64,000 bases of DNA, from the NCBI RefSeq assembly GCF_900155425.1, contig NZ_LT700190.1, positions 847,401 to 911,400 of the forward strand, written 5' to 3'. Positions 2,726 through 58,648 of the stretch are shown here, piece by piece. The position numbers and the translations under genes were made by a program. The DNA is from Parabacteroides massiliensis (lineage in GTDB: Bacteria; Bacteroidota; Bacteroidia; Bacteroidales; Tannerellaceae). Position 1 is the stretch's first letter, and every line of letters begins with the position of its first letter. The notes under the pieces were generated by a model. The model had not been told where the DNA came from, did not search any database, and saw only the letters and a list, made by a program, of their open reading frames with translations.

Positions 2726-5683
2726 TTATTCTTCCACAGCCTCTTCCATCTCGGAGTGGTAGGGTATCGGGAAATACCCCTTGCTGTTTTCCACATACCA
2801 TTTTGCGTACGGCCCGCTGAAGCTCCATTCCTGAAAAGACTCTGTGTCGCACAACTCGTCCAGTGAAATTATCTTTCCTATTTGCGACTGTTTATAGTCT
2901 TCCGGGCCGTAATAGTAGGAGTTTTTCAGCGAGACGACATTCCCTTGGCTGGGAACAACCGCGAACCAGTTCGCGCCGACGTTCAAGCAATTGTTGATGA
3001 CCGAACGTGAATCGGCTCTCCCGACCACACCGCCGTTCGTAAGCGATTGCTCGCCTTTGAACGGGCCGACGTTGACGCAGTCGTCGATTTCGCAGAACTG
3101 CTGGGCATGTCCCAATATACCGCCCACCTTGTCGACCTTGTCAACCTTTATCTCGCCGATGTTGAGGCATTGGGAAACGACAACCGCATTGTTTTGATAG
3201 TCTGTCGCCCCTTCGACAATGGCGTTTATGCCACCGATGGAGGTGACGACCCCTCCTATGGAAGCCAGTACCAAGGCCGCCGTAGACCCGGCATCGAAAG
3301 GTATGGCCGCAATCCCGATGACAGCCCCTACTATGCAGCAGGCTCCCGTAATGCTCTTTTGTATGATCTCTTGAAGTTTTCTTGACTTTTCAATCTCTTC
3401 GTAACGTTCCTCGCGCTTATGGTTGATGTTGTAGTTGACGATGGCGTTGTTTTCATCCGAAGCCTCGTAGAACGCCAACACTTGGTTCATGTGCTGCAAT
3501 TGCTGCTTGGAGACATCCGTGGTCAGCCCGTCCGCCATGATGCTGCTCGACCAGACGTAGCCGTTGCGTATGTCGCTCATGGCTTGCTTCACTTTGTCGG
3601 TGATTTCTGTCGTTTTTGCCGTCAAGGAGCTTTTCATCAGTTCGAGCTCTTTTTCGGTTGCCATCTCGTAGAATCCGTAAAGCCAGATCGAAGTCTCGGT
3701 GGCAATCAGGGCGAAGTCGAGCCCCGTCTCTCCGAGATGCAACACATGCGTGATCTCTTTCATGATATGAGCTGCTCCGGCTTCGGCCTCTTTAAAAACG
3801 GCTCCCGATACGGCTATCATCGGCCCGGCGATACCCAACACGCATTCCACGCTGCCTAAGACACAACTGACGATATCCAGAGCAGACCATTCCCTCGGAT
3901 CGCCTATCTCGCCGATGATGCCACCGGTCGGGCCTTTGCCTGAATTGTGGATTCTCGCCATGTTGCTGCAATAGTTTATCATGGTGTAGTTGCCTGCCAA
4001 GCCGACAACTCCGCCTGCATAGTGTGCCGATACGTTCAAGTCGCCATAATTCTGGCAGGCAAAGATGGCTCCCCATGTCGTTTTGCCGATGATGCCTCCG
4101 GCGCAATGGCTGGACGGCGCTGTCACGGCTCCTTGGTTGAGGACATTGTGCGTCACGGCGATAGAGGTGTTGCCGACAATGCCTCCTACGTATGCATCGG
4201 AAGCAAAGGCAGATATGCGGCCGGTGTTGTAGACCAGGTAACCACCGAATTGCGATTCGCCGCAGATGCCGCCTACGGCCGTCTCGCCTTCTATGGCACC
4301 GGTGTTGGAGCAGCCCTTGACCAATGCGTTGTTGAAGAGCAGTTCGTCCGAACCGATACGGGTGCTGCCGATGATTCCGCCCACGCCGGTGTGCCCTTTT
4401 ATGTCTCCTTTATTGATGGATGCGTATATGAACGAGATACCCGTTCCGCCTGCGATACCTCCCGTGCCGAATCCTCCGGAGGCTTTGTCGGAAGGGTCGT
4501 AGTCGCTTGATCCGGAGATGTTCCCGGTGTTGGTGCAGGCCAGGACGGAGAGCGAGTCTACGGAACCGACCAGGCCGCCCGCCCCAGTATGCCTGGAGCT
4601 GATTGATGCGTGGTTTTCGCTTTGCTGGACGTTCGTGTAGGAATATAAGGAACCGGCTCCCAACAGCCCGCCTACCGCGTAGTCTCCGCTCACCGGCGTG
4701 CTCTCGTTGACGCAGTTGTCCATCAACAGTACGCTCTTCATGTCTGTGACGCCGATCAGCCCGCCGTTGCCCACGCTGCCCTTGCAGCCTTTGACATATC
4801 CTTGGGACGTCGAACAAGAAGCGATGAATGTCGTGTCTGCCCGGTCGCCCGCCGTGATGCTGCCGCCGACAATGCTGCCTACGGCATAGATGCCTTCCAT
4901 CTTCGGATTGACCATCTTGACATTTTTGATGCAGGCGTGTTCCACAAAACCGAACAGCCCGATCCCCGATGTATAGGGGCGGACACACCAAAGATTCTTG
5001 ATGGAATATCCCGCACCGTCATAGACTCCGCGATACGGCGTGCTCGGCTGGTTGCCGATAGGATTCCAGCCCTGGTCGTGGTCGCTGTCCCACGAGGCTC
5101 TGTCCATGTCGATGTCGACTGTTTGGCGGAAATAGGTGTGAGTGGTGATTGTTTCGTTCTGCCGTTGGTCGTTGATGATGTTCCGGAGTGTCTTCAGGTG
5201 GCTGTAGCTGGAGATGATATAAGGGTCCTCCTGGGTCCCGCTTCCGGAGAAATTGAGAGAAGAGTTGTAATGGTCGATAACCTTCACGTCGCCTGCAGCG
5301 GATATGTCGATGCGGCAACCCAGTCCGAATTCAACCCATGTCGTGTCCGACGAGGTCTCGCCAAGATCCGGAAACTCCAGGGCGAGGAGTCGGTAGACGC
5401 CTTTTTTCAATCCCGTATGGAGCGTCAGGATGGATTGGCCGTCCAGCCGCACATGCAGTCCTTTCCGGGTAAATACTGTGCCGTCTTCCGCTTTTATTTT
5501 GCAGACATATTCGGGCGAATGAAATCCTTTGGTTTGTTGCTGCAAAATAATGGTCCGGTTTTCTCCGGCAAAGAGTTCACGGTCGCTGTCTTCGGGTGTG
5601 TCTATCGGCTCGTCCTTGTCTTGGCAAGCCGTGAAAAGGGTACAGATGCACCCTAAATAAAATAGCCAATGAAGTGCTTTCAT
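2726..5683 (-). CDS. GLUG-repeat lipoprotein with an internal helical insertion
   Basis: This 985-residue protein has a type II signal peptide with lipobox LFTAC and an acidic stretch (QDKDE) right after the cysteine, so a surface lipoprotein is likely. A GSGTQEDPYII entry module near residue 150 and a YDGAGYSIKNL motif open the solenoid, followed by GLUG-like repeats (VGGLLG, VGGIIG, VGGIVG) to about residue 598. Residues about 600-828 break the pattern. Two long hydrophobic Gly/Ala/Val/Ile segments (about 604-630 and 776-826) flank a charged helical stretch rich in Lys, Glu and Gln. GLUG repeats then resume (KVGGILGHAQQ, NGGVVGRAD) before a normal C-terminal end. It is the first gene of a likely two-gene transcript with the downstream GLUG gene. 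The fold is clear from the repeats; a role in adhesion or membrane interaction is inference. Confidence 0.85.
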   Translation of the reverse strand: MKALHWLFYLGCICTLFTACQDKDEPIDTPEDSDRELFAGENRTIILQQQTKGFHSPEYVCKIKAEDGTVFTRKGLHVRLDGQSILTLHTGLKKGVYRLLALEFPDLGETSSDTTWVEFGLGCRIDISAAGDVKVIDHYNSSLNFSGSGTQEDPYIISSYSHLKTLRNIINDQRQNETITTHTYFRQTVDIDMDRASWDSDHDQGWNPIGNQPSTPYRGVYDGAGYSIKNLWCVRPYTSGIGLFGFVEHACIKNVKMVNPKMEGIYAVGSIVGGSITAGDRADTTFIASCSTSQGYVKGCKGSVGNGGLIGVTDMKSVLLMDNCVNESTPVSGDYAVGGLLGAGSLYSYTNVQQSENHASISSRHTGAGGLVGSVDSLSVLACTNTGNISGSSDYDPSDKASGGFGTGGIAGGTGISFIYASINKGDIKGHTGVGGIIGSTRIGSDELLFNNALVKGCSNTGAIEGETAVGGICGESQFGGYLVYNTGRISAFASDAYVGGIVGNTSIAVTHNVLNQGAVTAPSSHCAGGIIGKTTWGAIFACQNYGDLNVSAHYAGGVVGLAGNYTMINYCSNMARIHNSGKGPTGGIIGEIGDPREWSALDIVSCVLGSVECVLGIAGPMIAVSGAVFKEAEAGAAHIMKEITHVLHLGETGLDFALIATETSIWLYGFYEMATEKELELMKSSLTAKTTEITDKVKQAMSDIRNGYVWSSSIMADGLTTDVSKQQLQHMNQVLAFYEASDENNAIVNYNINHKREERYEEIEKSRKLQEIIQKSITGACCIVGAVIGIAAIPFDAGSTAALVLASIGGVVTSIGGINAIVEGATDYQNNAVVVSQCLNIGEIKVDKVDKVGGILGHAQQFCEIDDCVNVGPFKGEQSLTNGGVVGRADSRSVINNCLNVGANWFAVVPSQGNVVSLKNSYYYGPEDYKQSQIGKIISLDELCDTESFQEWSFSGPYAKWYVENSKGYFPIPYHSEMEEAVEE

Positions 5684-6778: not shown

Positions 6779-9343
6779 ATGAAAGAAAAACTGCTCTACT
6801 TAATGCTGATACTATTTGTGTCTGCGTCAGTGTTTGCGCAAACCGGAGGTGGGTCAGCTGCCTTTACTATTAAAGGACAAGTAGTCGACTCTTTATCCAA
6901 TGAGTCCGTACCTTATGCCACATTGAGAATCGCGTCGGCTTCCGCGCCACAGACTCCGGTGAAATTGTTGGCTTGTGATGATGATGGCAAGTTCACGTCG
7001 ACAATGAACAAGCCGGGCAAATATGTGATGACAATGGAATCTTTAGGGAAAGTTACTGTCCAAAAAACTTTTACATTGTCAGAAAACAAGAAAGTGTTGG
7101 ATTTTGGCAAATTGTTCATGAACGACGATACCCAGCAGTTGAAGGAAGTGACCGTAACCGCTCAAAAGCCATTGGTCAAGATGGAGGTCGATAAGCTGAC
7201 TTATAACCTGGAAGACGACCCGGAGGCCAAAACCAGCAATGCGTTGGAAATGTTCCGCAAGGTCCCGATGGTCACGGTAGACGGCGAAGACAAGATCCAG
7301 TTGAAAGGATCGTCCAATTATAAAATCTACATGAATGGCAAACCTTCCAATTTGTTGAGTGGTAGCAATGCTTCCGATGTGTTGAAAAGCATGCCGGCCA
7401 GTTCGATCAAGAATATCGAGGTCATTACCGATCCGGGATCCAAATATGATGCCGAAGGCGTGGGAGGTATTATCAATATCATTACAACCAAGAATGCGCT
7501 GCAAGGATATACGGGAACGGTTCGTGCCGATGCCAGCACACTGGGTAGCTTCGGTGGCGGCGGCTATGTCTCGATGAAGGCAGGGAAGTTCGGCGTGACG
7601 GCCAACTACGGTTATAACCGTCGTAATTCCCCTTGGAATGATACCTATTCGATGCGCGATGAGCAGGAAGTGCAATACCAGCAGGGCGAGCAGACTTTTA
7701 CCCGTCCGTCTTCCTTGTTGAACGAACATGGACGCAGCAAAAACAAAGGCCCGTTCCAATACGGTTATTTGGAAGGGAGCTATGAAATCGATACGCTGAA
7801 CTTATTGAGCGTGGGTGTCAACCTGTTCCGGGGAAAATCGAACAACCTCTCCGAGCTCTTTGCCGATAAGGTCAATCGGACCGAACTGGCAGACGGAGAG
7901 CCGACAACGATGTATTCTTATAAACGCTATTCGGATTCGAAAGGAACATTCGGCTCTACGGATGTCAATGTCGATTTCCAGCATTCGACCAGCAAGAAGG
8001 ATGAATTGCTGACGTTGTCTTATCGTTTCAGCCAATCGCCCAACGACAATGAAGGACATTCCCGGCTTGAAGACCTGGTAGGCGATTATAGCCAGGCTTA
8101 TCGTTATCCGAACTGGAATATCAATGATGCTTCCACGACGGAACATACGGCGCAGGTCGATTATACGACACCTCTGTTTAAAGATCAGACGTTGGAAGCC
8201 GGCGTGAAATATATAAACCGCCAGAGCAAGAGTAATACACTGGAACAGGTGATGGATTCATTGAATGTCTGGCAGGATATTTCGCAACGTAATAGCGATT
8301 TCCGCCATACCCAGCACATTTATTCCGCTTATTTGGGATATCTGGTCAAGTTCGGTAAATTAGGAGCCAAAGCAGGGGTCCGCGCAGAAGGGACCAGCTT
8401 GAACGCTGAGTTTGCCAAGGCGCCGGAAGAGAACTTCAAGACACATTATTTCGATGTTGTCCCGAATGCGACATTGACCTATCAGTTGGATATGTCTTCG
8501 CAGTTGCGTTTGGGATACAACATGCGTATCCAGCGTCCGGGTATCTGGTATCTGAACCCGTATTTGAACAATATCGACCCGCAGCGTATCTCGCAAGGTA
8601 ATCCGAATCTGGATTCTGAAAAGAGTAACAATGTGAACTTCAACTTCAGCAAGTTCGCACAGAAGTTCAGCATTAATGCAAGTGTGAGCTATACGTTCGT
8701 GAACAATGCGATTGAAAGGTATACGATAATAGTCAACTTCCCGGAATCCGATCCGCTCTCCCAATATAACGGAGCTTCTTATAGCACGTATGGGAACCTG
8801 GGAAAACGCCAGCAGGTCGGACTGTTCCTGTATGGCAGCTGGAATCCGGTTCCCCTGTTCCGTATCTATATGAACGGCGGAATGGACTATACGAATATCA
8901 ACAGCAAAAAAGCGTTGGGTCTGACGAAGGATGGTGTGGCTGCCCGAGTTTTTGCCGGAGCACAGTTTAACCTGCCGAAAGACTTCCGTATCAATCTGCA
9001 TGGTGGTTATTTCAGCCCGTGGGTACAGTTGCAGGGCAAACAGTCTCCTTTCTATTTTACCGGTTTGAATGTCAGCAAGGATTTCCTGAAAAAGAAACTC
9101 TCCGTTACTTTGGGTGCACAGAACCCGTTCTGGAAGACGATGAAGATGGAGTCGACTACGACAGGCGAAGGATTCGTGGATCGTTCTACGACTTATCGTC
9201 ATGCCCGTGAATTCCGTTTGAGTCTCTCTTATCGTTTCGGAACGATGAAGGGTCAGATCAAGAAAGTCCGCCGTGGCATCAGCAATGATGATACCAAGAG
9301 CGGTGGAGAAGGCAATAGCGGTGGCGGCGAACAGGCGATGTAG
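6779..9343 (+). CDS. TonB-dependent receptor-like outer membrane beta-barrel protein
   Basis: The 854-residue protein starts with a Sec signal (FVSASVFAQ). A carboxypeptidase-regulatory-like beta-sandwich follows at about residues 30-115 (FTIKGQVVDSLSNESVPYATLRI), then a plug domain (SNALEMFRKVPMVTVDGEDKIQLKG, SIKNIEVITDPGSKYDAEGVGGIINIIT) and a long alternating beta-barrel. It fits the OMP_b-brl_3 family of Bacteroidetes rather than SusC: it is shorter and has no SusD next to it. The C-terminus runs past the barrel into a Gly/Ser-rich tail (SGGEGNSGGGEQ). It probably transports an unknown small ligand or peptide across the outer membrane with TonB. It is monocistronic: own promoter and a strong terminator. 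Confidence 0.88.
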   Translation: MKEKLLYLMLILFVSASVFAQTGGGSAAFTIKGQVVDSLSNESVPYATLRIASASAPQTPVKLLACDDDGKFTSTMNKPGKYVMTMESLGKVTVQKTFTLSENKKVLDFGKLFMNDDTQQLKEVTVTAQKPLVKMEVDKLTYNLEDDPEAKTSNALEMFRKVPMVTVDGEDKIQLKGSSNYKIYMNGKPSNLLSGSNASDVLKSMPASSIKNIEVITDPGSKYDAEGVGGIINIITTKNALQGYTGTVRADASTLGSFGGGGYVSMKAGKFGVTANYGYNRRNSPWNDTYSMRDEQEVQYQQGEQTFTRPSSLLNEHGRSKNKGPFQYGYLEGSYEIDTLNLLSVGVNLFRGKSNNLSELFADKVNRTELADGEPTTMYSYKRYSDSKGTFGSTDVNVDFQHSTSKKDELLTLSYRFSQSPNDNEGHSRLEDLVGDYSQAYRYPNWNINDASTTEHTAQVDYTTPLFKDQTLEAGVKYINRQSKSNTLEQVMDSLNVWQDISQRNSDFRHTQHIYSAYLGYLVKFGKLGAKAGVRAEGTSLNAEFAKAPEENFKTHYFDVVPNATLTYQLDMSSQLRLGYNMRIQRPGIWYLNPYLNNIDPQRISQGNPNLDSEKSNNVNFNFSKFAQKFSINASVSYTFVNNAIERYTIIVNFPESDPLSQYNGASYSTYGNLGKRQQVGLFLYGSWNPVPLFRIYMNGGMDYTNINSKKALGLTKDGVAARVFAGAQFNLPKDFRINLHGGYFSPWVQLQGKQSPFYFTGLNVSKDFLKKKLSVTLGAQNPFWKTMKMESTTTGEGFVDRSTTYRHAREFRLSLSYRFGTMKGQIKKVRRGISNDDTKSGGEGNSGGGEQAM

Positions 9344-9409: not shown

Positions 9410-9477
9410 TTGGACAATTCTATCCCTCCAATTAGACAAATAGTGCACTTCTCTTTGCCTTTCATTGCTTACTTTTG
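9410..9477 (+). promoter_or_regulatory. Promoter with bipartite HTCS-type operator upstream of GH2
   Basis: TTGGACAA at 9410-9417 and TTAGACAA at 9432-9439 are direct repeats 22 bp apart. The first starts 60 bp and the second 38 bp before the -7 box TACTTTTG (9470-9477). The same geometry occurs at 23193-23260 (plus) and 17443-17376 (minus), all within this PUL. Direct repeats two helical turns apart are typical sites for AraC-domain regulators such as HTCS proteins. That the regulator is the HTCS at 27.4-31.5 kb is inference. Confidence 0.75.
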
Positions 9478-9503: not shown

Positions 9504-11540
9504 ATGAAACACACTATCTTGAGTCTGCTGCTCCTTTTTATCAGCACTTCTGTCTTTGCTGCACGTAAGGAAATCCTGTTGAACGAGAACTGGATGTTCC
9601 GCTTTTCCCATCAAGTACAGTTTAAAAGTGAAGAACGGGTGAACCTGCCCCATACCTGGAATAGCGGTGATGCACTTTCGGGTAAACAGGATTACTATCG
9701 CGGAATGGGCAACTATACCAAAACGCTGTTTGTAAAACCCGAATGGAAAGGCAAACGCCTCTTCCTGCGTTTCGAAGGAGTCAATACGGTTACGAATGTT
9801 TTCATTAACGATGTCCATATCGGTGAGCACCGTGGCGGATATGGCGCGTTTGTATTCGAGATCACGGATAAGGTGAAATATGATGCCGACAACCGGATCT
9901 TGGTGAAGGTCAATAACGCTTTGCAACAGGATGTCATGCCGTTGGTCGGCGATTTCAACTTCTACGGAGGTATCTACCGGGATGTGAACCTGATCGTAAC
10001 GGATCCTGTCAATATCTCGCTCACCGACTATGCTTCTCCCGGTGTCTATCTGATCCAGAATAAGGTAACGAAAGAACAGGCCGATGTGCGGGCGAAAGTG
10101 CTTGTCTCTAACGGCAGCGCGACGGCGCAACCCGTAAAAGTGGACATTAAGGTCTGGGAGGGCGACAAGCTTGTCCAACAGCAAGATATGAATGTCACGG
10201 TAGAAGCCGGCGACTGGGCCACGACCGGAATGGATCTGACAATCCGGAACCCCCATCTGTGGAACGGCCGCAAAGACCCGTTTATGTATAAGGTCGAGAT
10301 ATCCCTTTTCTCCGAAAGCGAGATGATAGACCGAATCGTGCAGCCGTTGGGTTTGCGCTATTATCATGTGGATGCCGAAGAAGGTTTCTTCCTGAATGGC
10401 GAACATCTGAAACTGAAAGGCGTATGCCGCCACCAGGATCGGGCGGAAAGAGGAAATGCGCTTTATAAAATGCACCACGATGAAGATGCCGCCATCATGG
10501 CCGAGATGGGAGCTAATGCCGTTCGTCTGGCTCATTATCCGCAGGCGACCTACTTTTACGACCTGATGGATAAATACGGTATTGTCACCTGGGCCGAGAT
10601 ACCGCAGATAGGACCGGGCGGATACCAGGATAGGGGCTATATCAACCAACCCTCTTTCCGCGAGAACGGAAAAGAGCAGTTGATCGAATTGATCCGTCAG
10701 CACTACAACCATCCGTCGATCTGTTTCTGGGGACTGTTCAACGAGTTGAAGACCATCGGTGACAACCCGACCGAATATATAGAGGAACTGAACGAACTGG
10801 CCCATAAGGAAGACCCGACCCGCCTGACGACTTCAGCCAGTTTCCTTTCTTACGACGATGAGATAAGTAAAGTAACCGATGTGATTGCCTGGAACCAGTA
10901 TTTCGGTTGGTATGGCGGTTCACCGTCCGATATGGGAAAATGGCTGGACGCCAATCACAAGGCACACCCGGAATATAAGATCGCCATCAGCGAATATGGA
11001 GCGGGGGCGAGCATCTACCACCAACAGGACTCTGTGAAACGGGGGATCGCCTCCGGTTGGTGGCATCCGGAAAACTACCAGACTTATTATCATATCGGCA
11101 ACTGGAAAGCAATGGCGGAACGTCCGTTCGTCTGGGGCTCTTTCATCTGGAACCTGTTTGATTTCGGCGCCGCCCATCGTGTGGAAGGTGATCGTCCCGG
11201 CATCAACGACAAAGGTCTGGTGACTTTCGACCGCAAGGTGAAAAAAGATGCGTTCTATTTCTATAAGGCAAACTGGAATACGGAGGAACCGTTCGTTTAC
11301 ATCGCGAACCGCCGCCATCGCGATCGTTCACTGGCCGTAACGGATATCATGATCTTCTCCAACCAACCCGAAGTCGAATTGTTCGTAAACGGAAAAAGCC
11401 TCGGTCGGCAGAAGCCGGATGAATATGCGACATTCGAATGGAAAGCAGTCTCTCTGCAAGAAGGCGAAAACACGATAGAAGCCCGTTCCACCCAAAAGAA
11501 GAATCCTGTAAATGACAAAGTGGTCTGGACGGTGAAGTAA
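9504..11540 (+). CDS. Glycoside hydrolase family 2 (beta-galactosidase/beta-glucuronidase type)
   Basis: The 678-residue enzyme has a signal peptide (STSVFA), an N-terminal sugar-binding beta-sandwich (LPHTWNSGDA, YYRGMGNYTKTL, RLFLRFEGVNTVTNVFIN), an immunoglobulin-like domain, and a TIM barrel. The predicted acid/base is Glu414 in CFWGLFNELKT and the nucleophile Glu497 in IAISEYGAGA, spaced as in other GH2 enzymes. A C-terminal domain (VELFVNGKSLG) resembles the DUF4982-like module of many Bacteroidetes GH2 proteins. It cleaves a terminal beta-linked galactosyl, glucuronyl or similar residue, probably in the periplasm; specificity cannot be read from sequence. Its promoter shares the operator of the lyase gene and of the minus-strand susC, which ties it to this PUL although it sits at the edge. 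Confidence 0.9.
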   Translation: MKHTILSLLLLFISTSVFAARKEILLNENWMFRFSHQVQFKSEERVNLPHTWNSGDALSGKQDYYRGMGNYTKTLFVKPEWKGKRLFLRFEGVNTVTNVFINDVHIGEHRGGYGAFVFEITDKVKYDADNRILVKVNNALQQDVMPLVGDFNFYGGIYRDVNLIVTDPVNISLTDYASPGVYLIQNKVTKEQADVRAKVLVSNGSATAQPVKVDIKVWEGDKLVQQQDMNVTVEAGDWATTGMDLTIRNPHLWNGRKDPFMYKVEISLFSESEMIDRIVQPLGLRYYHVDAEEGFFLNGEHLKLKGVCRHQDRAERGNALYKMHHDEDAAIMAEMGANAVRLAHYPQATYFYDLMDKYGIVTWAEIPQIGPGGYQDRGYINQPSFRENGKEQLIELIRQHYNHPSICFWGLFNELKTIGDNPTEYIEELNELAHKEDPTRLTTSASFLSYDDEISKVTDVIAWNQYFGWYGGSPSDMGKWLDANHKAHPEYKIAISEYGAGASIYHQQDSVKRGIASGWWHPENYQTYYHIGNWKAMAERPFVWGSFIWNLFDFGAAHRVEGDRPGINDKGLVTFDRKVKKDAFYFYKANWNTEEPFVYIANRRHRDRSLAVTDIMIFSNQPEVELFVNGKSLGRQKPDEYATFEWKAVSLQEGENTIEARSTQKKNPVNDKVVWTVK

Positions 11541-12288: not shown

Positions 12289-14004
12289 TTACCAGTTAGG
12301 ATTTTGTTCTAAAGAGTTGTTTATTTCGATTTCAGTAGCAGGAATCGGCCACAGATAATCGCGGTTTTCACGGAATACGCGAGTCAACAGGCGTTTGCCG
12401 GTGATACCGTATTCTTCACGATTCAATAAAAGATGGGATAATCTCCAACGGCGCAAATCGCTGTCGCGAATGCCTTCACCTGCCAATTCGTAGGCTCTTT
12501 CACGGAAAATACGCTGGAACACTTCATCCTTGCTGTTTGCTGCCAGGTAAGAAGGGCCGCTGTTCAACAAAGCGACACCGGCACGGGTACGGACTTTGTT
12601 GATATATTCGACGGCTTTCGACTGGTTTCCTGTTTCGTTGTAACATTCGGCTAACAGCAGATAGACATCTGCCAAACGGATGATCGGAAAGTTGACAGGT
12701 GTATGCGCACGGTTTGTAATCGCTCCGTTCCAGTCTCCTTCCGGAACGAATTTTCTCCAGAAATAGGTTTCCCAACCCCCTCTGTTATTACGCATGAAGC
12801 CGTTATTCTCATTTACTGCCACAACATCGCCTTTTGGGTTCTTGGCGAAGATGAACGTCATCAGTCGTTCCTGGTTACGGTTCCAACCCAGATAGGTTGT
12901 ATAAGGGGCGATAACCGTAGCCATCAGACGTGGATCGCGCTGGTTCCACATTTCCAATATTTTGTCCGCTTCAGCCGGTCTGTCCAGAATTTCAGCACCT
13001 GCATCATCGACTGTGCATCTGAGTACTCGTTCACGAACTTGATTGTCTGTCGTATAACCGGGGAACAATTCATCCCAGTCAAACGGACGTCCGTCTTTGT
13101 ATTCATACATGTCTACCAGATTGACGGATGGCAATGTATTGTTCCAGCAGCTACCGTAAGAATTACGTGTCCCGGCATAGAAACACAAGGGCATACCGTA
13201 GTCGTTGCCTGTACCGCCCAGATTGATAATGGAGAAAATCATCTCGGAGCTTGTATGGCCGGTCAGGTTGAACAAATCGGCGAAATTGCTGTACAGTTCA
13301 TGTCCGTTTGTTGACTTTTCAAGATTTTCAATAGCCTTTTCGTAGTCCTTGTTATAAAGATACACCTTGCCGAGCAAAGCCTGGACTGCGGTCAATGTTA
13401 CACGGCCATAGTTGGCGTCGTCCCATTTGTCTGGCAATCCTGAATTCAGCGCCTTTTCCAGGTCGCTGATAATGAATGCCCGTGTTTCTTCAGCCGAACT
13501 TCTGGGTTTCATCAAGTTGTTGAAATCCTGTTCCAGATTTGTAGTCTCGTCATACAAGGGAAGTCCTCCGAAATAATCCATCAGATGGAAATAGATCAAT
13601 GCACGTAAGAAACGGGCTTCCCCCAACATTTTGTTCTTTACATCTTCTGCAATAGGAGCTTCGCCGATACTGCGGATGGCCAGATTGGCACGCTGGACGG
13701 CATTGTAGCCGTTCTGCCATTTGCCGTTCAGGAAACCTGTACGTGGCGTACAGGTGCCCAACTGAAGGGCTTCATACTGGTCATAACCGACGGCAACATC
13801 CGAATTCACGTCGATCATGAACATCTTGCCATATAAGTCGGTGTTTTTCAAGGATGCATAGACTCCCATCAACCCGGACTTGCATTGGTCTTCTGTTTGC
13901 CAAAAGGTAGAAGAACTCAACTGATCGTAAGGAGCCCTGTCTAAGTCGTAGCAGCTTGTCAATGCTAAAAGTGCTGCTAAAAAAGGCATAATATATTTTT
14001 TCAT
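12289..14004 (-). CDS. SusD/RagB-family glycan-binding lipoprotein (pair A)
   Basis: The 571-residue protein has a type II signal peptide (LLALTSCYDLDR) and the features of SusD proteins: PYDQLSSSTFWQTEDQ, the helical LGEARFLRALIYFHLMDYFGGLPLYDE, and the C-terminal YLWPIPATEIEINNSLEQNPNW. SusD proteins sit on the outer surface as a lid over the SusC barrel and bind oligosaccharides. It lies 34 bp downstream of the minus-strand susC, and a terminator follows it. The ligand is unknown; a uronic-acid oligosaccharide is inferred from neighbours. Confidence 0.95.
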   Translation of the reverse strand: MKKYIMPFLAALLALTSCYDLDRAPYDQLSSSTFWQTEDQCKSGLMGVYASLKNTDLYGKMFMIDVNSDVAVGYDQYEALQLGTCTPRTGFLNGKWQNGYNAVQRANLAIRSIGEAPIAEDVKNKMLGEARFLRALIYFHLMDYFGGLPLYDETTNLEQDFNNLMKPRSSAEETRAFIISDLEKALNSGLPDKWDDANYGRVTLTAVQALLGKVYLYNKDYEKAIENLEKSTNGHELYSNFADLFNLTGHTSSEMIFSIINLGGTGNDYGMPLCFYAGTRNSYGSCWNNTLPSVNLVDMYEYKDGRPFDWDELFPGYTTDNQVRERVLRCTVDDAGAEILDRPAEADKILEMWNQRDPRLMATVIAPYTTYLGWNRNQERLMTFIFAKNPKGDVVAVNENNGFMRNNRGGWETYFWRKFVPEGDWNGAITNRAHTPVNFPIIRLADVYLLLAECYNETGNQSKAVEYINKVRTRAGVALLNSGPSYLAANSKDEVFQRIFRERAYELAGEGIRDSDLRRWRLSHLLLNREEYGITGKRLLTRVFRENRDYLWPIPATEIEINNSLEQNPNW

Positions 14005-14038
14005 CTTGTAATTCTGTTTATAAATTCAACAAACATGT

Positions 14039-17000
14039 TTAGAATGTTACATTGATACCGATTACTGCCTGACGCATTGTCGGATATGCAATGCCACTTA
14101 CTTCAGGATCATATCCTTTCCATTTGGTGAATGTAAAGAAGTTTTCCAAACTACCGTAGATTCTGACTCTGTCCATATAGGCAACCTTTGTCCATGCCGA
14201 AGGCAATGTATATCCCAACGTGATGTTACGGATTTTCAGAAAAGCTTTGCTTGCTACCCAGAAATCTGAATACTGTTCATTACGTGTATCGCTGTAGTCC
14301 AACAGGCGAGGATATTTGGCATCCGTACGGCCTTCGTACCAGCGCCCTTCGATAACATCGGCGTTCAACTGATAACCCAGGCGGACTGTCGTTTTATACA
14401 AAGCGCTCAAATATACATCTTTGATGCCGGCCTGTCCCTGAAGCAGAGCTGAGAAGTCGATGCCTTTCCAGTTGAATCCTAAGTTCATACCATAGGTGAA
14501 GGTCGGGTTACTACCATTACCGACAACAACGCGGTCGTCATCATTTATCAGACCGTCGCCATTCAAATCCTTGTAAAGGATATCGCCCTTTTGCGGAGTA
14601 CCGTATGGGAATACGACTTTACCTTTCACATCCGGATTGTCCAGCATGGACTGTACCAGAGCCAAATCTTCATCTGTCTGAACAATGCGATCTATTTCGC
14701 GAACATACAACGACCAGATGGGAAGGCCTTCCTTTAACATCCTTGCACCACTGTAAGAAGGATCGTCTCCTTTGAACTTATCCACATTATTTTTGATATA
14801 AGTAAAGTTGAATCCGACATTGTAAGAGAAATCCTTTCCGGCTTTGTCGCTCCAGTTTGCCGAGAATTCGAGACCTTTATTGGTTACTTGCGCTGCGTTC
14901 TGCTTAGGGATGGTTGCATTACCATGTACCATCGGGGCAGGGAGGTCGATCAAGATGCCGTCTGTTTTCTTGTTGAAGAATTCGATACTACCGGACAGGC
15001 GGTTCCCAAAAACGTTATAGTCGAGACCGACGTTTGTTATATGAGTGGTTTCCCATGTTAAAGCAGCATTCGCGATAGCTGTCTGCGACAATCCCATTGC
15101 CACGGCACGAGCCAGGACATAGTTCGTTTGTGCATACAAGGATTGCGAGGTGTAGTTGCCATCGTTGTCGCGGTTGGAACCCAACGTGTTGTTACCCAGC
15201 GAACCGTATGATGCACGGACCTTCAGGTTATCCAGCCAACTGATGTTTTTCATGAATTCTTCTTCCGAGATACGCCATGCAGCAGAAAAAGACGGGAAAT
15301 AGCCCCACCGGTTGTCAGCCAGAAAACGCGAAGAACCATCTGCACGTAAGTTCGCTTCAAACAGGTATTTGTCGTCCCATCCTAAATTCAGACGTCCGAA
15401 ATAAGAACGCATGGCCCATTCCGTAATATTGCCGGTCGAAGAAGATTCGCCGATTGCACCGTCGATCACGCCCAATGAAGGATCGATAAGGTCTTTGCGT
15501 GTCGCACTGAAATATTGCCGTTTATACTGTTCCTGGCTGGCGCCGACCATGAGGCTCGTGCTTAGGCGATCATCAAAAAAGTTGCGTTCATATCGCGCGG
15601 TCGCATCCATAAAGTTTCTGAAAGTCTTTTCATTGTAATTATAAATGCTGGTTTGGCCTACTCCGTCCGTATACAAAGTGTTCGTCTGGAAGTTGTACAG
15701 CGGAACAAAATTAGGTTTGCTTTCTTTAAACTTATCATAATAATCATAAGTATAAGAACCTTGGATCGTCAAGCCTTTCAATGGTGTCAGAATGGCATAC
15801 AAACGGGTTTTCAATGTATTCATTTGGATATTACCGGTCGTATTTCTCAGACGATTGTAAGGATTGTTCGCCGCATTTTGAGGATCATCTTCCGCGTTTG
15901 CATTGATACCTAACCGGTTTTGATCGTCCAAATATGCGATACCCGGATTTCCGCCGGTCAGGCCATAAGTATAGATATCATTGATATTTTCACTTACAGG
16001 GGTCGTATTTGCGGTATATCCACTTAGGTTTACTCCCAGTTTCAACCAGTCTTTGACTTGAGAATCGATATTCGCACGAAGACTGAAGCGTTCGTAGCCG
16101 CAATTTTCAAGGATACCCGGATTGTTCAAATAATTGAAAGAGGTATAATAGGTAATCTTTTCCGTACCGCCGGAAGCAGACAGGTTATGTTGATGGGAAA
16201 CTCCCGTTTCGTAAACATCAAAAATGTCACTGTTCGGGTAAGCCAGATAGTTAGGCATACCATATTCGTTCAATCCGTTCGGATCTTTCGATTTTTCACG
16301 CCATAGATTGATCACATTCTGAGAGAAGGGGGCCGGCTTATTACTGTTCGTCATACCTTCATTCAGATATTCCATGTAATCGGCATAGTTGGATATGACA
16401 TCATAGGGTTTGTCCAATGTCTGGAAAGACACGTAACCCGTATAATCCAATTTCATCTTGCCGGACTTACCGGATTTGGTCGTAATCAGGATGACACCGT
16501 TGGCGGCACGCGAACCATAGATTGCAGATGACGCCGCATCCTTCAATACGCTGACTGTCTCGACATCTTGCGGGCTGACACTGTTCAGGCTGCCTTCCAC
16601 GCCGTCGATAATGACCAGAGGCGAAGAGTTGTTCAATGTACCCTGACCACGCACCTTGATATCCGCATCTCCATTATTGGACGGAATATTGTTGCTGGAT
16701 GTGATCTGTACACCGGGGGCAGTACCGGCCAATGCTGTTGAGATATTTGTCAACGGACGGCTTTCTGCCATTTCACTGACATTAACGGAAGTGACGGAAC
16801 CGGAGAGGTTGACTTTTTTCTGCGTACCATAACCGACGACTACGACTTCTTCCAATGCTTGAGAGTCTTCGGCAAGTTTGATAGTAATGTTTTTCTGGTT
16901 ATTCACCGGAATTTGTTGTTCTTTGTATCCGATATAAGAAACAACTAAAATAGAATTAGGCGCGACTTCAAGAGAAAAATTACCGTCCATATCGGTAATA

Positions 17001-17242
17001 GTTCCATTGGTTGTCCCTTTTTCCACCACATTTGCGCCTGCAATAGGTCCAAACTGATCTTCTACCACACCTTTAATAACGTGTTTATTCTGTTGTGGCG
17101 AAGCGACAACAGGATTAGGCTCTGCAGAACCTAAAGCATCGGTTGAAGGATTTGCTGTAGCGATCCCGATTGATGCCAAGAACATGGTTGCTCCCAGGAA
17201 CATCGCTCTCGATACATAAAAGCGTTTAAAATCTTTTGTCAT
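14039..17242 (-). CDS. SusC-family TonB-linked outer membrane transporter (pair A)
   Basis: The 1067-residue protein has a signal peptide (residues about 1-31), a carboxypeptidase-regulatory-like domain (IKGVVEDQFGPIAGANVV), a TonB-box-like EVVVVGYGTQKKVNLSG, a plug with the family signature (SVLKDAASSAIYGSRAANGVILITT), and a barrel closing with QAVIGINVTF. It imports oligosaccharides with the SusD encoded next to it. Its first 170 or so residues are nearly the same as those of the divergent susC at 17914, while the rest is clearly different, so the two genes form an inverted repeat at their 5' ends. Its promoter carries the operator shared with the GH2 and lyase genes. Confidence 0.95.
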   Translation of the reverse strand: MTKDFKRFYVSRAMFLGATMFLASIGIATANPSTDALGSAEPNPVVASPQQNKHVIKGVVEDQFGPIAGANVVEKGTTNGTITDMDGNFSLEVAPNSILVVSYIGYKEQQIPVNNQKNITIKLAEDSQALEEVVVVGYGTQKKVNLSGSVTSVNVSEMAESRPLTNISTALAGTAPGVQITSSNNIPSNNGDADIKVRGQGTLNNSSPLVIIDGVEGSLNSVSPQDVETVSVLKDAASSAIYGSRAANGVILITTKSGKSGKMKLDYTGYVSFQTLDKPYDVISNYADYMEYLNEGMTNSNKPAPFSQNVINLWREKSKDPNGLNEYGMPNYLAYPNSDIFDVYETGVSHQHNLSASGGTEKITYYTSFNYLNNPGILENCGYERFSLRANIDSQVKDWLKLGVNLSGYTANTTPVSENINDIYTYGLTGGNPGIAYLDDQNRLGINANAEDDPQNAANNPYNRLRNTTGNIQMNTLKTRLYAILTPLKGLTIQGSYTYDYYDKFKESKPNFVPLYNFQTNTLYTDGVGQTSIYNYNEKTFRNFMDATARYERNFFDDRLSTSLMVGASQEQYKRQYFSATRKDLIDPSLGVIDGAIGESSSTGNITEWAMRSYFGRLNLGWDDKYLFEANLRADGSSRFLADNRWGYFPSFSAAWRISEEEFMKNISWLDNLKVRASYGSLGNNTLGSNRDNDGNYTSQSLYAQTNYVLARAVAMGLSQTAIANAALTWETTHITNVGLDYNVFGNRLSGSIEFFNKKTDGILIDLPAPMVHGNATIPKQNAAQVTNKGLEFSANWSDKAGKDFSYNVGFNFTYIKNNVDKFKGDDPSYSGARMLKEGLPIWSLYVREIDRIVQTDEDLALVQSMLDNPDVKGKVVFPYGTPQKGDILYKDLNGDGLINDDDRVVVGNGSNPTFTYGMNLGFNWKGIDFSALLQGQAGIKDVYLSALYKTTVRLGYQLNADVIEGRWYEGRTDAKYPRLLDYSDTRNEQYSDFWVASKAFLKIRNITLGYTLPSAWTKVAYMDRVRIYGSLENFFTFTKWKGYDPEVSGIAYPTMRQAVIGINVTF

Positions 17243-17250
17243 AATAACAC
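17198..17250 (-). repeat. Left arm of inverted repeat at susC 5' ends
   Basis: This 53-bp arm covers the start of the minus-strand susC and 8 bp upstream of it. It matches 17906-17958 in inverted orientation with one mismatch. Homology continues into both genes at lower identity. Confidence 0.9.
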
Positions 17251-17345
17251 CAGATTAATTAATAAAATGATAATAATTCTCGTTTTTCTAAATTGTCACA
17301 TTGTGCTTTTCTATTGTGTTTTCCACCTAAGTGCATTTTGATCTG

Positions 17346-17360
17346 AGTCCTTCAAGAACT
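17346..17360 (-). promoter_or_regulatory. Near-palindrome in the susC A leader
   Basis: On the minus strand the sequence is AGTTCTTGAAGGACT, a 7-bp inverted repeat around one base with one mismatch, 103 bp before the ATG and just downstream of the predicted start of transcription. The plus-strand susC has the perfect form at nearly the same distance. Confidence 0.5.
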
Positions 17361-17375
17361 GCAATCAGAATGCTG

Positions 17376-17443
17376 CAAATTTAGATGTTAAAAATGGGCA
17401 TGGATGTATAATTTTATCCATTTGATATGCACTAATTTTCCAA
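17376..17443 (-). promoter_or_regulatory. Promoter with bipartite HTCS-type operator, susC A
   Basis: Read on the minus strand, TTGGAAAA (17443-17436) and ATGGATAA (17421-17414) are 22 bp apart and start 60 and 38 bp before the -7 box TAAATTTG (17383-17376). This reproduces the spacing at the GH2 and lyase promoters exactly, although the second half-site is less conserved. Confidence 0.7.
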
Positions 17444-17803
17444 CAGCGAGTTTTTAGCAATATATTAAATGTTTGCATATCAGTGCATTAAATCCTATTG
17501 TATTTTGTATAACATATAAGAGGGGCTTAATGAGCAACATATTTATTTAGAATTCATGTTCGGGTATTTGCACGCATGCATATTGATACTGAAAAACGAT
17601 GTCATTGTTGGTTGATATTTATAATTTGCCACTGTGGACCACAAAAAACAGATTTATCAATATGATTATATTGATGATGTCTTAAAAAAGTAAGAAATTA
17701 TAGACAAATCTAATACAAAATGTACCATAAACTACCTCAAAAGCTATCGTAAACGAATTCATAACTTGACAATATCGGATCATAATAAATGCCGGTAAGC
17801 CTT

Positions 17804-17818
17804 AGTTCTTGAAGAACT
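17804..17818 (+). promoter_or_regulatory. Perfect palindrome upstream of susC B
   Basis: AGTTCTTGAAGAACT is a perfect 7-bp inverted repeat around a central G, 95 bp before the ATG. With no usable loop it suits a dimeric protein site better than an RNA hairpin. Confidence 0.5.
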
Positions 17819-17905
17819 ATGGTGATATTGAACAGGTAAGCACAAAAATGATAATAAAATGAATTATAAATCGAATTTACTAATCAAAATTACTAATCAA
17901 ATCTA

Positions 17906-17958
17906 GTGTTATTATGACAAAAGATTTCAAACGCTTTTATGTATCGAGAGCGATGTTC
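17906..17958 (+). repeat. Right arm of inverted repeat at susC 5' ends
   Basis: This is the inverted partner of 17198-17250 (one mismatch in 53 bp), spanning 8 bp of leader and the first 45 bases of the plus-strand susC. Confidence 0.9.
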
Positions 17959-20900
17959 TTAGGAACTTCCATGTTCTTAGCATCAATCGGGATGGCTTCC
18001 GCTAATCCCTCAATCGATACGTTAGGTTCTGCAGAACCTAATTCTGTTGTAGCGCAGCTACAACAGAATAAACACACTATTAAAGGTGTAGTAGAAGATC
18101 AGCTTGGACCTATTGCTGGTGCCAATGTGGTGGAAAAAGGAACAACCAACGGAACTATTACCGATATGGACGGTAATTTTTCTTTGGAAGTCGCACCTAA
18201 TTCTATTTTAGTTGTTTCTTTTATCGGATATAAGGAACAACAAATTCCGATAAACAACCAAAAATCATTTACAATTAAACTTGTTGAAGATTTTCAGGCA
18301 TTAGACGAGGTTGTAGTCGTCGGTTATGGCACGCAGAAAAAAGTGAATTTAACAGGTGCTGTTTCTTCTGTCGATTTTTCGGAACAGGCAGCCAATCGTC
18401 CTATTACAAATGTTTCTTCTGCTTTGGGTGGTTTGTCTGCCGGTTTGCAAGTTATGCAAAGTAAAGGTAATCCGACCGATGATGGAGCGACGATTCGTGT
18501 TCGTGGTACAGGTACGTTAAATAACGCCAGTCCATTGGTTTTAGTAGATGGAATGGAAGCTTCAATGGATGCTGTTAACCCACAAGATATTGAATCTATT
18601 TCTGTATTAAAGGATGCTGCCTCTGCAGCTATCTATGGTTCACGTGCTGCCAATGGCGTTATTTTGATTACGACAAAGAAAGGTAATCGGGAAAAAATAC
18701 GTGTGACCTATTCCGGTACTTTTTCTGTAGCTCAACCCTCTAATTTGTTGGATTTTGTCTCGGATTATCCGAAACATATGCGTATCATCAATGAGATGAA
18801 TCATAATATTACGGGGGATAGCAGTAGGGATATCTTCTCTCAATCGACAATCAGTGCCTGGGAAGCTGCTAATGCAGATCCGAACGGGTTGACTGCAAAT
18901 GGCGTACCGAACTGGCTGGCTTATCCGAATACGAACTGGAACGAGGAAATGTATCAGAACAATTTAGTTCAAGATCATGTCGTATCTGTCAACGGAGGCA
19001 GTGAAAAGGTCGCATTTCTGTTGTCTGCTGGTTATATGGATAATCCCGGTTTGGTTGAAAATACAGGGGTGAAACGTTACACTATGCGTGCCAATGTTGA
19101 GGCGAATGTGACAAAATGGTTGATATTGGGAACTCGTACATATGCAATCATGAATGATAAGGATCAGGGAAACTTTGACGATACGGGTATGTTAAACTTT
19201 ATTCGCCAAACAACACCAGGTTTGATTGGTATGTATGACGGCAAATTAGGATATCCTGAAGCAGCGGAAGAAAGTGCTACAGCTAACAATATGTGGATGT
19301 ATTTGAAAAGTAGGGATGGTCAGGACCGTTCTTCTCGTTTCAATACGACTATGTATTCGAAGATCAAGTTTATGGAAGGTTTGAGCTGGGATTTTAATTT
19401 TAATTATGGTCGTCGTTTTGATGAATATAACTCCCATACTTCTCCTGTAGCACGGTATAAGTTCAGCGATGGTAGTATCGGTTCGACTGCTACGACTCCC
19501 GATCAGATGAGTACGACTTGGAAATCGTATGCAGAAGAGACATATACGTTGGAAAATATCCTTCGTTATGACAAAACATTCAAGGGAGATCACGATTTGA
19601 ATGTGATGCTTGGTTATAATGAATATTATTACAAACAATATGAACACAAACAGGAAAAGAAGGGATTGATTGATCCGAGTATCAATGTTCCTGATGGCGC
19701 AACGGAGATGATAAAAAGTTCCGGTACGGCAAAAGACGAAGCTTTGCGTTCTGTGTTTGGTCGTCTCAACTATGCTTATAAGTCTAAATATTTGTTTGAG
19801 GCAAACTTCCGGTATGACGGCTCTTCTCGTTTTAATACTGACTCACGATGGGGTATTTTCCCCTCTTTCTCTGCTGCTTGGCGTATTTCGGAAGAAGATT
19901 TTATGAAAAATATCGATTGGTTGAGTAACTTGAAAATTCGTGCTTCTTGGGGACAGATCGGTAACAATCGCATTACTGACAAAGACGGATATCAGGATTA
20001 TTATGGTTACCAAGCTACTTATGCAACCTATAATTATTCTTTTGGTGGAAAACAAATGACAGGGTTGGCTCAGAACCGAATAGGTAATACTCGTTTGGAG
20101 TGGGAAGGTACGACTGTTACCAATTTTGGTCTTGATGCCAGCTTCCTGAACAATCGTTTGACAGCAGAAATCGATGTTTATAACAAAGTGACGGATGGTA
20201 TCTTGACAACTCCCAACTTGCACTTAACAATGGGGATTAAAACTCCTCCGACTATGAATACCGCGGAAGTGACTAACCGTGGTGTAGAAATGACGTTAGG
20301 TTGGAAAGATAAAATCGGGGAGTTGGACTATGCCGTATCGGCAAATTTTTCTTACAATCATAATGAAGTCACCAAGTATTTGGGCGAATATAAGACTGGT
20401 TGGATAGAAAAAGACGGTAAAAAAGTATGGCAATCCAATATCGGTGAAGTTTCGGTGTCTAAAGATAACGGACGTATTGTTGAAGGTCATTCAATCAAGG
20501 AATATTATACATTAAATACTTATTCAGGTAATGGTTCTCATTTCAATAGTGATGGTTCCGTTAATATCAATGGTGGTCCGAAAGACGGCATGATTCGTAC
20601 GGAACAAGACATGAAATGGTTACAGTCAATGATGGACGCAGGTTATCAGTTCCAACCGAACAATGGCATTGGACCGACGAAAATTAATTACGGAGATTTG
20701 ATTTATGCAGATGTTAATGGTGACGGAATATACGGTAGTTCATACGATTATACATTCCAAGGTTCTTCTGCCATGCCTAAGTTTGGATATGGTATCAACA
20801 TCAGTGCCGGTTGGAAAGGATTTGACTTGAGTATGTTGTGGGCTGGTAATGGTGGCTTCGAACTCTATTGGGAAGAAGATCCATATAACAGTGTCTCCAT

Positions 20901-21276
20901 CAGAAATGGATGTGCGGTTTCTGAGCGAGTTGCTAATGACCACTATTTTTATGATCCGACAAATCCGAGTGATCCAAGAACCAATTTGAATGCTTATTTC
21001 CCCCGTTTGGTTGATGAGAGTAACAAGCAGAGCCGTCAGACAAGTAATTTCTATTTGTACAATGGATCTTATATGAAATTGAAAAACTTGACAATCGGTT
21101 ACACATTGCCGGCAAATATTGTTTCTAAAATATTTGCAGAGAGGGTACGAGTTTATGTATCGGGTGAAAACTTGTTTACTATCACTTCCTTCCCGGGACA
21201 AGATCCGGAAATGGGAGCTAAAACCAATTATCCGTCATTGCGTCAATTTGCGGGAGGTATTAACGTAACATTCTAA
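17914..21276 (+). CDS. SusC-family TonB-linked outer membrane transporter (pair B)
   Basis: The 1120-residue protein has the same layout as pair A: signal peptide, regulatory-like domain (IKGVVEDQLGPIAGANVV), EVVVVGYGTQKKVNLTG, plug signature (SVLKDAASAAIYGSRAANGVILITT) and a barrel ending in QFAGGINVTF. The first 170 residues are close to those of the divergent susC, but plug and barrel differ, so a different or larger ligand is likely. Third codon positions look richer in A/T than in pair A, which suggests a separate origin for the body of the gene with homogenised 5' ends. It is followed after 11 bp by its SusD. The bipartite operator of the PUL was not found in front of it. Confidence 0.95.
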   Translation: MTKDFKRFYVSRAMFLGTSMFLASIGMASANPSIDTLGSAEPNSVVAQLQQNKHTIKGVVEDQLGPIAGANVVEKGTTNGTITDMDGNFSLEVAPNSILVVSFIGYKEQQIPINNQKSFTIKLVEDFQALDEVVVVGYGTQKKVNLTGAVSSVDFSEQAANRPITNVSSALGGLSAGLQVMQSKGNPTDDGATIRVRGTGTLNNASPLVLVDGMEASMDAVNPQDIESISVLKDAASAAIYGSRAANGVILITTKKGNREKIRVTYSGTFSVAQPSNLLDFVSDYPKHMRIINEMNHNITGDSSRDIFSQSTISAWEAANADPNGLTANGVPNWLAYPNTNWNEEMYQNNLVQDHVVSVNGGSEKVAFLLSAGYMDNPGLVENTGVKRYTMRANVEANVTKWLILGTRTYAIMNDKDQGNFDDTGMLNFIRQTTPGLIGMYDGKLGYPEAAEESATANNMWMYLKSRDGQDRSSRFNTTMYSKIKFMEGLSWDFNFNYGRRFDEYNSHTSPVARYKFSDGSIGSTATTPDQMSTTWKSYAEETYTLENILRYDKTFKGDHDLNVMLGYNEYYYKQYEHKQEKKGLIDPSINVPDGATEMIKSSGTAKDEALRSVFGRLNYAYKSKYLFEANFRYDGSSRFNTDSRWGIFPSFSAAWRISEEDFMKNIDWLSNLKIRASWGQIGNNRITDKDGYQDYYGYQATYATYNYSFGGKQMTGLAQNRIGNTRLEWEGTTVTNFGLDASFLNNRLTAEIDVYNKVTDGILTTPNLHLTMGIKTPPTMNTAEVTNRGVEMTLGWKDKIGELDYAVSANFSYNHNEVTKYLGEYKTGWIEKDGKKVWQSNIGEVSVSKDNGRIVEGHSIKEYYTLNTYSGNGSHFNSDGSVNINGGPKDGMIRTEQDMKWLQSMMDAGYQFQPNNGIGPTKINYGDLIYADVNGDGIYGSSYDYTFQGSSAMPKFGYGINISAGWKGFDLSMLWAGNGGFELYWEEDPYNSVSIRNGCAVSERVANDHYFYDPTNPSDPRTNLNAYFPRLVDESNKQSRQTSNFYLYNGSYMKLKNLTIGYTLPANIVSKIFAERVRVYVSGENLFTITSFPGQDPEMGAKTNYPSLRQFAGGINVTF

Positions 21277-21287
21277 TCAAAGAAAAC

Positions 21288-23192: not shown

Positions 23193-23260
23193 TTGGACAA
23201 TCTGTGCACATGAATTGGAAAAATAGGACGCTTTTTTACCGGGGGAAACTTTTATTTTTG
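23193..23260 (+). promoter_or_regulatory. Promoter with bipartite HTCS-type operator upstream of the lyase
   Basis: TTGGACAA (23193-23200) and TTGGAAAA (23215-23222) lie 22 bp apart, 60 and 38 bp before the -7 box TATTTTTG (23253-23260). Aligned without gaps to the GH2 promoter, the bases flanking both half-sites (TTTGGACAAT and AATTRGAMAAATAG) also match. Confidence 0.75.
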
Positions 23261-25210: not shown

Positions 25211-25217
25211 AAAAGAC

Positions 25218-26429: not shown

Positions 26430-26457
26430 TCCGTGCCTGAATGTCATATACATAAAC

Positions 26458-26465
26458 TATCTTTG
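26458..26465 (+). promoter_or_regulatory. -7 box (TATCTTTG) for the phosphodiesterase-like gene
   Basis: An exact TAnnTTTG match 19 bp before the ATG at 26485. The PUL operator is not found at the expected distance, so the gene may be expressed independently. Confidence 0.55.
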
Positions 26466-26484
26466 CGTACTTAATTATAATAGT

Positions 26485-27426: not shown

Positions 27427-27470
27427 AAGACTTCCGCAGCCGTCAATCGGCGTCTGCGGAAGTCTTTTTT
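27427..27470 (+). terminator. Terminator overlapping the 3' end of the HTCS gene
   Basis: AAGACTTCCGCAG pairs perfectly with CTGCGGAAGTCTT and is followed by TTTTTT. The right arm lies inside the last codons of the convergent HTCS gene (stop at 27443). Confidence 0.85.
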
Positions 27471-41338: not shown

Positions 41339-41346
41339 TATTTTTG
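41339..41346 (+). promoter_or_regulatory. -7 box (TATTTTTG) for the hybrid kinase
   Basis: Exact TAnnTTTG, about 34 bp before the preferred ATG at 41380. Confidence 0.5.
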
Positions 41347-41379
41347 TTGATGCGAGTTGTGCAAAAGTGTAGAATGATC

Positions 41380-53448: not shown

Positions 53449-53464
53449 ATTTGAATATTAATGT

Positions 53465-53511
53465 AAAAAGGGGGAGTACACCATGATCCCGTATTGGTGT
53501 ACCTCCCCCTT
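53465..53511 (-). terminator. Terminator/attenuator between susD and GH116
   Basis: On the minus strand a 16-bp stem with one bulge (AAGGGGGAG.TACACCA arms at 53495-53511 and 53468-53483) is followed by TTTTTAC, 9 bp after the susD stop. It should lower expression of GH116 relative to SusCD. Confidence 0.85.
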
Positions 53512-53519
53512 CTTGTTGA

Positions 53520-55151: not shown

Positions 55152-55156
55152 GATTA

Positions 55157-58465: not shown

Positions 58466-58476
58466 AACTTTGCTCA

Positions 58477-58577: not shown

Positions 58578-58648
58578 TACCATTCCTGAGGAATAATTTG
58601 GATTTACTTCATAGGCATTATTCTTTTTATAGGTGAATATTATAGTAT

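Follow-up and report, generated by a model that had tools for sequence, protein, structure and literature searches.

A direct-repeat operator predicted for an HTCS at three promoters of a Parabacteroides massiliensis PUL, one of them on a candidate invertible segment between divergent susC genes

Gene content of the locus and its predicted substrate

The window, by which we mean the whole 64,000-nucleotide stretch of Parabacteroides massiliensis DNA analyzed here, contains two divergent susC/susD pairs (12289 to 17242 on the minus strand and 17914 to 23081 on the plus strand), a lyase operon (23282 to 27384), an HTCS gene, and an upstream GH2 gene. The minus-strand pair consists of susD A (12289 to 14004; Pfam SusD_RagB) and susC A (14039 to 17242), the latter being the gene faced in this assembly by the putatively invertible promoter described below; susC B (17914 to 21276) and susD B (21288 to 23081) make up the plus-strand pair. 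The 5' ends of the two susC genes (17159 to 17256 and 17900 to 17997) form a 98-nt inverted repeat, 91% complementary, which corresponds to the conserved starts of the divergent importers.

The enzyme genes lie on the plus strand. The product of the GH2 gene (9504 to 11540) matched the LacZ4-type beta-glucuronidase model NCBIfam NF050095 at 1176 bits against a cut-off of 950. The first gene of the lyase operon (23282 to 25210) encodes a polysaccharide lyase with near full-length similarity to characterized PL33 enzymes (936 and 856 bits by phmmer to structures 8r73 and 8r6z; family name as given in the available part of PMC11848413), and a PL33-like activity is predicted for it. It is followed by genes for a GH88 unsaturated uronyl hydrolase-like protein (25218 to 26429; Pfam PF07470) and a type I phosphodiesterase/sulfatase-fold protein (26413 to 27384; Pfam PF01663). 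Together, the PL33-like lyase, the LacZ4-type GH2, and the GH88 suggest that the substrate would be a glycan containing glucuronate, for example hyaluronan or heparosan. The HTCS gene (27443 to 31492, minus strand) encodes a Reg_prop propeller followed by Y_Y_Y, HisKA, HATPase, receiver, and AraC HTH_18 domains, and its product is the predicted binder of the operators described below.

Elsewhere in the window, a second hybrid kinase with a TPR sensor, a receiver, and an AraC domain is encoded at 41344 to 44196. Genes for an ECF sigma factor, a FecR-type anti-sigma factor, SusC, SusD, and a GH116 protein lie in series on the minus strand at 50905 to 60271, and a 985-aa ORF at 2726 to 5683 gave no Pfam or NCBIfam match at an E value of 0.001.

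Operator repeats at three promoters and their link to the HTCS

An earlier note on this DNA had proposed that two half-sites, TTGGAMAA and TTRGAMAA, precede a TAnnTTTG box at identical distances in three promoters of the locus, and all nine of its coordinates proved exact. At GH2, the operator spans 9410 to 9447 on the plus strand, with half-sites of about 16 bp starting at 9410 and 9432, 22 bp apart, and the box TACTTTTG lies at 9470 to 9477. The lyase operon has the same arrangement on the plus strand (operator, 23193 to 23230; half-site starts, 23193 and 23215; box TATTTTTG, 23253 to 23260), and the promoter of susC A has it on the minus strand (operator, 17406 to 17443; half-site starts, 17443 and 17421; box TAAATTTG, 17376 to 17383, read from 17383). 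In our reading, TAnnTTTG is the -7 box typical of main Bacteroides promoters; we place the -33 element on the same basis. The distances of 60 and 38 bp from the half-site starts to the box held at all three sites of the window, and homologous sites elsewhere tolerate a difference of 1 bp (59 or 60 bp). Neither pattern nor box scans found a separate operator for susC B in the window.

The genome scan proposed in the same note was near noise with its own stricter pattern when two mismatches were allowed (79 matches versus 60 for the control). In contrast, the fused exact pattern TTGGAMAA-N14-WTRGAHAA was specific: it matched exactly three times in the 5.02-Mb genome, each time at one of the three named promoters, compared with one match for the reversed-pattern control. 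Scanning the window with a looser core, RGAHRA-N16-RGAHRA upstream of TAnnYTTG, returned the three named sites only.

To describe the operator across species, we aligned 28 homologous sites from the loci of relatives (10 from GH2, 8 from the lyase, 5 of the susC A type, and 5 before susC B or another susC). A pattern demanding RGA at both unit positions had gathered 23 of these; the other five were picked out by visual inspection, namely three susC sites (G037, G035, and G049) plus, in G035, those at GH2 and the lyase. RGA stood at both unit positions, 22 bp apart, in 28 of 28 sites, a count that holds partly by construction. The 8-mers of the earlier note, present as described in the window, proved too strict for this wider set: TTGGAMAA was kept in 12 of the 28 sites and TTRGAMAA in 10. 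The half-site consensus is longer, about TGGACAATnnGTGCA, and a second element, RTGY, occurs 11 bp into the half-site (17/28 first and 8/28 second half-sites). From the first half-site to the -7 box, the distance was 60 bp in 22 sites and 59 bp in 6. Direct-repeat self-similarity of the averaged matrix peaked at 22 bp (1.77, versus a shuffle mean of 0.98 with an SD of 0.15); none of 20000 column shuffles reached this peak, and the next offsets were 23 (1.42) and 14 (1.27).

Spacers and flanks have diverged among the 28 sites while the geometry was kept. The operator was present at GH2 in all 10 loci and at the PL33-like lyase in all 8 orthologs, and it was also conserved at susC sites. This conservation in orthologous loci bears out the expectation of the earlier note, including its placement of the distant GH2 gene in the same regulon. 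Upstream of a lyase-like gene of only 38% identity (L007), no operator was recognizable within 260 bases.

Across 38 Parabacteroides genomes, the pattern TGGAHRA-N16-RGAHRA-N29..31-TANNYTTG matched 18 times in nine genomes, and the control matched once. HTCS orthologs of at least 68% identity were present in 8 of the 38 genomes, and 16 of the 18 matches lay in seven of these eight, each sharing a contig with the HTCS at a distance of no more than 21 kb. The exception, G035, has an HTCS ortholog (68%) yet gave no match to the strict pattern; its looser sites are those located by eye. The two remaining matches (G038 and G044) come from genomes without a close HTCS ortholog and adjoin GH88 genes 75 to 76% identical to that of the window; an HTCS of 38% identity lies 4.4 kb from the match in G038. 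Matches at unrelated promoters were thus almost absent, both in the genome itself, with its three sites, and genus-wide, where all but two stood beside an HTCS ortholog.

We also aligned the HTCS domain of the window with those of seven orthologs (G014, G013, G002, P. acidifaciens, G037, G035, and G049) and of a 49%-identical paralog from the same genome. The HTH regions SRSSLYAKFKALTG and GFGSPRYFTRCFKAQF were identical in eight of eight DNA-binding domains compared and were changed in the paralog. At the locus of this paralog, the susC promoter carries TTTGGACTGTGTGTATATAAGAAACGGACG, a GGAC repeat with the same 22-bp period and 60-bp distance in other letters, and G014 and G002 retain this repeat in slightly altered form. 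Co-occurrence with the HTCS ortholog and the changed repeat at the paralog agree with the earlier suggestion that the repeats are a candidate DNA code for the HTCS at 27.4 to 31.5 kb. The sequence comparisons establish the geometry of the operators and their linkage to this HTCS, and the assignment of the operators to it, as predicted binding, is well supported. The repeats also have the features of the HTCS direct-repeat class, namely a period close to 21 bp (here 22 bp), a position upstream of susC and enzyme genes in an HTCS locus, and conservation with the orthologous HTCS.

Alternatively, the repeats could be bound by another regulator, either some other HTCS with an AraC-type domain or an AraC protein that is not part of one. 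The second AraC-domain hybrid kinase (41344 to 44196) is encoded in the window itself, at least 25 stretches of the genome match the HTCS (20 of 85 candidates were scored), and binding by the HTCS at 27.4 to 31.5 kb is predicted. However, operator matches follow the ortholog of precisely this HTCS (16 of 18 on its contig and within 21 kb), the HTH regions are identical where the operators are conserved, and the paralog has a changed operator; we therefore consider a different regulator distinctly unlikely. It strikes us as very improbable that the likeness of the three sites has no regulatory meaning and reflects either an old promoter duplication or AT-rich sequences that resemble each other by chance. 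The 8-mers are indeed A/T-rich and loosely matched, as the 79 two-mismatch matches against 60 for the control illustrate, yet the geometry is kept in 28 sites despite their diverged spacers and flanks, and the fused pattern is specific genome-wide.

A candidate invertible segment between the susC genes

The operator and promoter of susC A lie inside a 473-bp segment (17346 to 17818) bounded by inverted repeats AGTTCTTGAAGRACT and situated between the divergent susC/susD pairs. Its two arms are recombination-site-like: the left arm reads AGTTCTTGAAGGACT on the minus strand at 17346 to 17360, and the right arm reads AGTTCTTGAAGAACT on the plus strand at 17804 to 17818. They are the sole copies of AGTTCTTGAAGRACT in the genome and are mutually inverted. 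The motif AGTTC-N5-GAACT may resemble a B. fragilis inversion motif. Short inverted repeats thus flank the promoter next to susC, as in invertible promoters, and no such repeats were found at the enzyme promoters (GH2 and lyase). In the present orientation, no TAnnTTTG box lies on the plus strand, that of susC B, anywhere from the left repeat (position 17361 onward) to the ATG of this gene. The minus strand of the segment holds two such boxes, at 17383 and 17712, and the one at 17712 has no operator.

Both orientations of the segment occur, with the break at the repeats, in a comparison between species that uses one genome for each. Genome G014 has the orientation of the window, and G013 is reversed relative to both (one contig each). 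Positions 8091 to 8349 of the G014 locus (L021) aligned with 14459 to 14719 of the G013 locus (L022) on the plus strand at 95%, covering the left leader and the repeat; 8256 to 8848 aligned with 15588 to 15009 on the minus strand at 81%, covering the inside of the segment. The alignment changes strand at the repeat, to within the uncertainty left by the similar leaders flanking it. At the level of sequence, both the inverted repeats and the opposite orientations between species are therefore established. A separate feature of the G014 locus (L021, 3265 to 14159) is that the positions flanking the segment are occupied by different susC/susD alleles (57% and 79% relative to susC A), as if cassettes had been swapped behind a conserved leader.

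We examined ten segments beside the susC genes of this locus in eight genomes (two each in P. faecis and G037; one each in the window, G014, G013, G035, G049, and G002). Each carries a single outward-reading operator-promoter: in ten of ten, one end had the operator with the TAnnTTTG box at the 60-bp distance, and no box lay within 120 bases of the other end. The outward promoter faces susC in three segments (window, G014, and G002) and faces away from it in seven. Two segments precede two susC genes in P. faecis, and one arm of the G002 segment is degenerate. In G013 and G037, the segment has the lyase operon on its far side, so a reversed promoter would leave susC A off. Two contigs of P. 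acidifaciens (L006 and L007), which start within the repeat immediately ahead of a susC, were excluded from the count. A composite pattern of operator, box, and repeat matched once each in 5 of the 38 genomes, with no match for the control, and does not reach the segments of G035 and G049. Where an operator was present, repeats were not always found: the related locus L005 has the GH2 operator and no inverted repeats at susC B, with an assembly gap adjacent; the similar operators before genes in G038 and G044 have no such repeats there; and the paralogous HTCS locus of the genome itself has its direct repeat at susC and no AGTYC-N5-GRACT site.

Further inverted AGTTC-N5-GRACT pairs exist in the genome. 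Nine were examined: a susC homolog is situated at most 600 bp from six of them and 1.8 kb from a seventh, behind two ORFs; for the other two, no susC homolog was recognized. Because no listed ORF in these other invertible loci (L044 to L055, mostly 10-kb stretches) had the HTCS as its best match, we make no claim that HTCS-driven inversion is general. The integrase family PF00589 gave 26 matches in the genome, 25 of them over the cut-off; none was linked to the repeats at susC A, and one lies beside the L044 susC locus, which has the same kind of repeat. It is a 409-aa tyrosine recombinase (L044, 3122 to 4351, G000:C1; Phage_integrase, Arm-DNA-bind_5, and SAM_5) adjoining that invertible-looking locus and is a candidate invertase.

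Two observations concern repeats outside the window. Just before its first base (G000:C2:846698-846937, L049) lies an inverted pair, AGTTCCACTAGRACT, with a TAATTTTG box that reads toward the window and away from minus-strand ORFs of 191, 308, and 1118 aa, the last a susC homolog. The repeat core AGTTCTTGCAGRACT occurs at the start of contig C2 (C2:5-19), at the end of C4 (C4:469941-469955), and as an inverted pair inside C4 (C4:378276-378459); these copies possibly belong to a multi-site shufflon that broke the assembly.

The inverted repeats at susC A might nevertheless be old or inactive, recording a rare evolutionary flip or homologous recombination of the near-identical susC 5' ends, with no phase switch today. 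Orientation differences were seen only between species, the 98-nt, 91% complementary arms formed by the two susC 5' ends could recombine unaided, and one arm in G002 is degenerate. However, between G014 and G013 the left leader stays in place through the repeat (95%) while the inside is reversed, so that the simplest placement of the break is the repeat rather than the 98-nt arms, with the leader similarity leaving some room. Moreover, the promoter is enclosed by repeats of this type in all ten segments examined, six of the nine other inverted pairs have a susC homolog no more than 600 bp away, and each of the two P. acidifaciens contigs terminates in the site. In B. fragilis, DNA inversion is known to switch SusC/SusD genes, from the available parts of PMC4747536 and PMC11852207. 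On this evidence, we regard inactive repeats as rather unlikely and favor a segment that still inverts.

Proposed mechanism and comparison with known systems

Taken together, the data indicate with high probability that the three repeats serve as operators for the HTCS next to them, with one carried on a segment that can lie in either orientation between the susC genes, and that a single predicted glycan signal would induce the fixed enzymes together with the importer that is faced. A dimer of the AraC-type domain of the HTCS would bind both half-sites on one face of the helix, and the bound HTCS would recruit RNA polymerase at GH2, the lyase, and susC; the end of the half-site nearer the promoter would roughly coincide with the expected position of the -33 element. 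Inversion of the segment may be carried out by a tyrosine recombinase acting on the AGTTC-N5-GRACT sites that lie in the 5' leaders of the susC genes. The glycan signal, acting through the HTCS, would set when the regulon is on, and inversion would set which SusC/SusD pair is made (here A, not B) and, in some relatives, whether any is made; we infer that such switching is live.

A broader reading, which we hold on balance with some reservation, is that the locus is a sense-and-select switch, in which one HTCS would read a uronic-acid glycan and drive fixed enzymes along with an invertible operator-promoter, each cell would make one of two importers, and occupancy by the HTCS might bias inversion. 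If so, a clonal population would gain different import specificities under one sensor, with the enzymes the same in each cell. The predicted operator is unusually specific (16 of 18 matches genus-wide beside an HTCS ortholog), and the meeting of glycan sensing and DNA inversion in one promoter makes testable how gut Bacteroidales vary importer choice while enzyme induction stays fixed. Studies of promoter orientation near susC genes should accordingly be read together with the inducing glycan.

To our knowledge, HTCS operators are known mostly as predictions, and glycan sensing and DNA inversion have so far been described apart. Inversion of B. fragilis SusC/SusD genes by Tsr0667 was reportedly described by Nakayama-Imaohji in 2009. 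Among the open-licence PMC papers listed by a literature search, no title or opening of an abstract described HTCS control joined with promoter inversion. In the available part of Ravcheev et al. 2013 (PMC3878776), the predicted HTCS operators of Bacteroides thetaiotaomicron are direct repeats with an average period of 21 bp and sites of 12 to 16 bp, the HTCS_Hep regulon includes BT4662, the BT4658 operon, and the distant BT4675, and related HTCSs have related motifs. The operators described here resemble these in forming a direct repeat on one helix face and in a regulon of SusC/SusD, lyases, and a distant enzyme gene. They differ in their 22-bp period, the likeness having been judged without a letter-by-letter comparison of logos, and in that one operator is putatively invertible, an arrangement of which that part of the paper describes no example.

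SusC/SusD phase variation in B. fragilis proceeds by DNA inversion with a dedicated invertase, Tsr0667, according to the available text of PMC4747536 and PMC11852207. The locus studied here is similar in that susC/susD genes and their promoters are associated with inversion-based switching, which is predicted in our case. It is unlike that system in that the invertible promoter carries a predicted HTCS operator common to the fixed enzyme promoters and the invertase is represented by candidates only. Invertible promoters near susC/susD and capsule loci have also been described in gut Bacteroidales (PMC10939037 and PMC10994844, as far as the available excerpts go), with shifts of PUL-promoter orientation in gut samples (PMC10939037). 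As in those promoters, PUL promoters included, inverted repeats flank the promoter and orientation varies. In the excerpts of these papers, orientation is not tied to the operator of a glycan sensor, whereas the invertible promoter of the present locus is predicted to be under the same sensor as its fixed enzyme genes.
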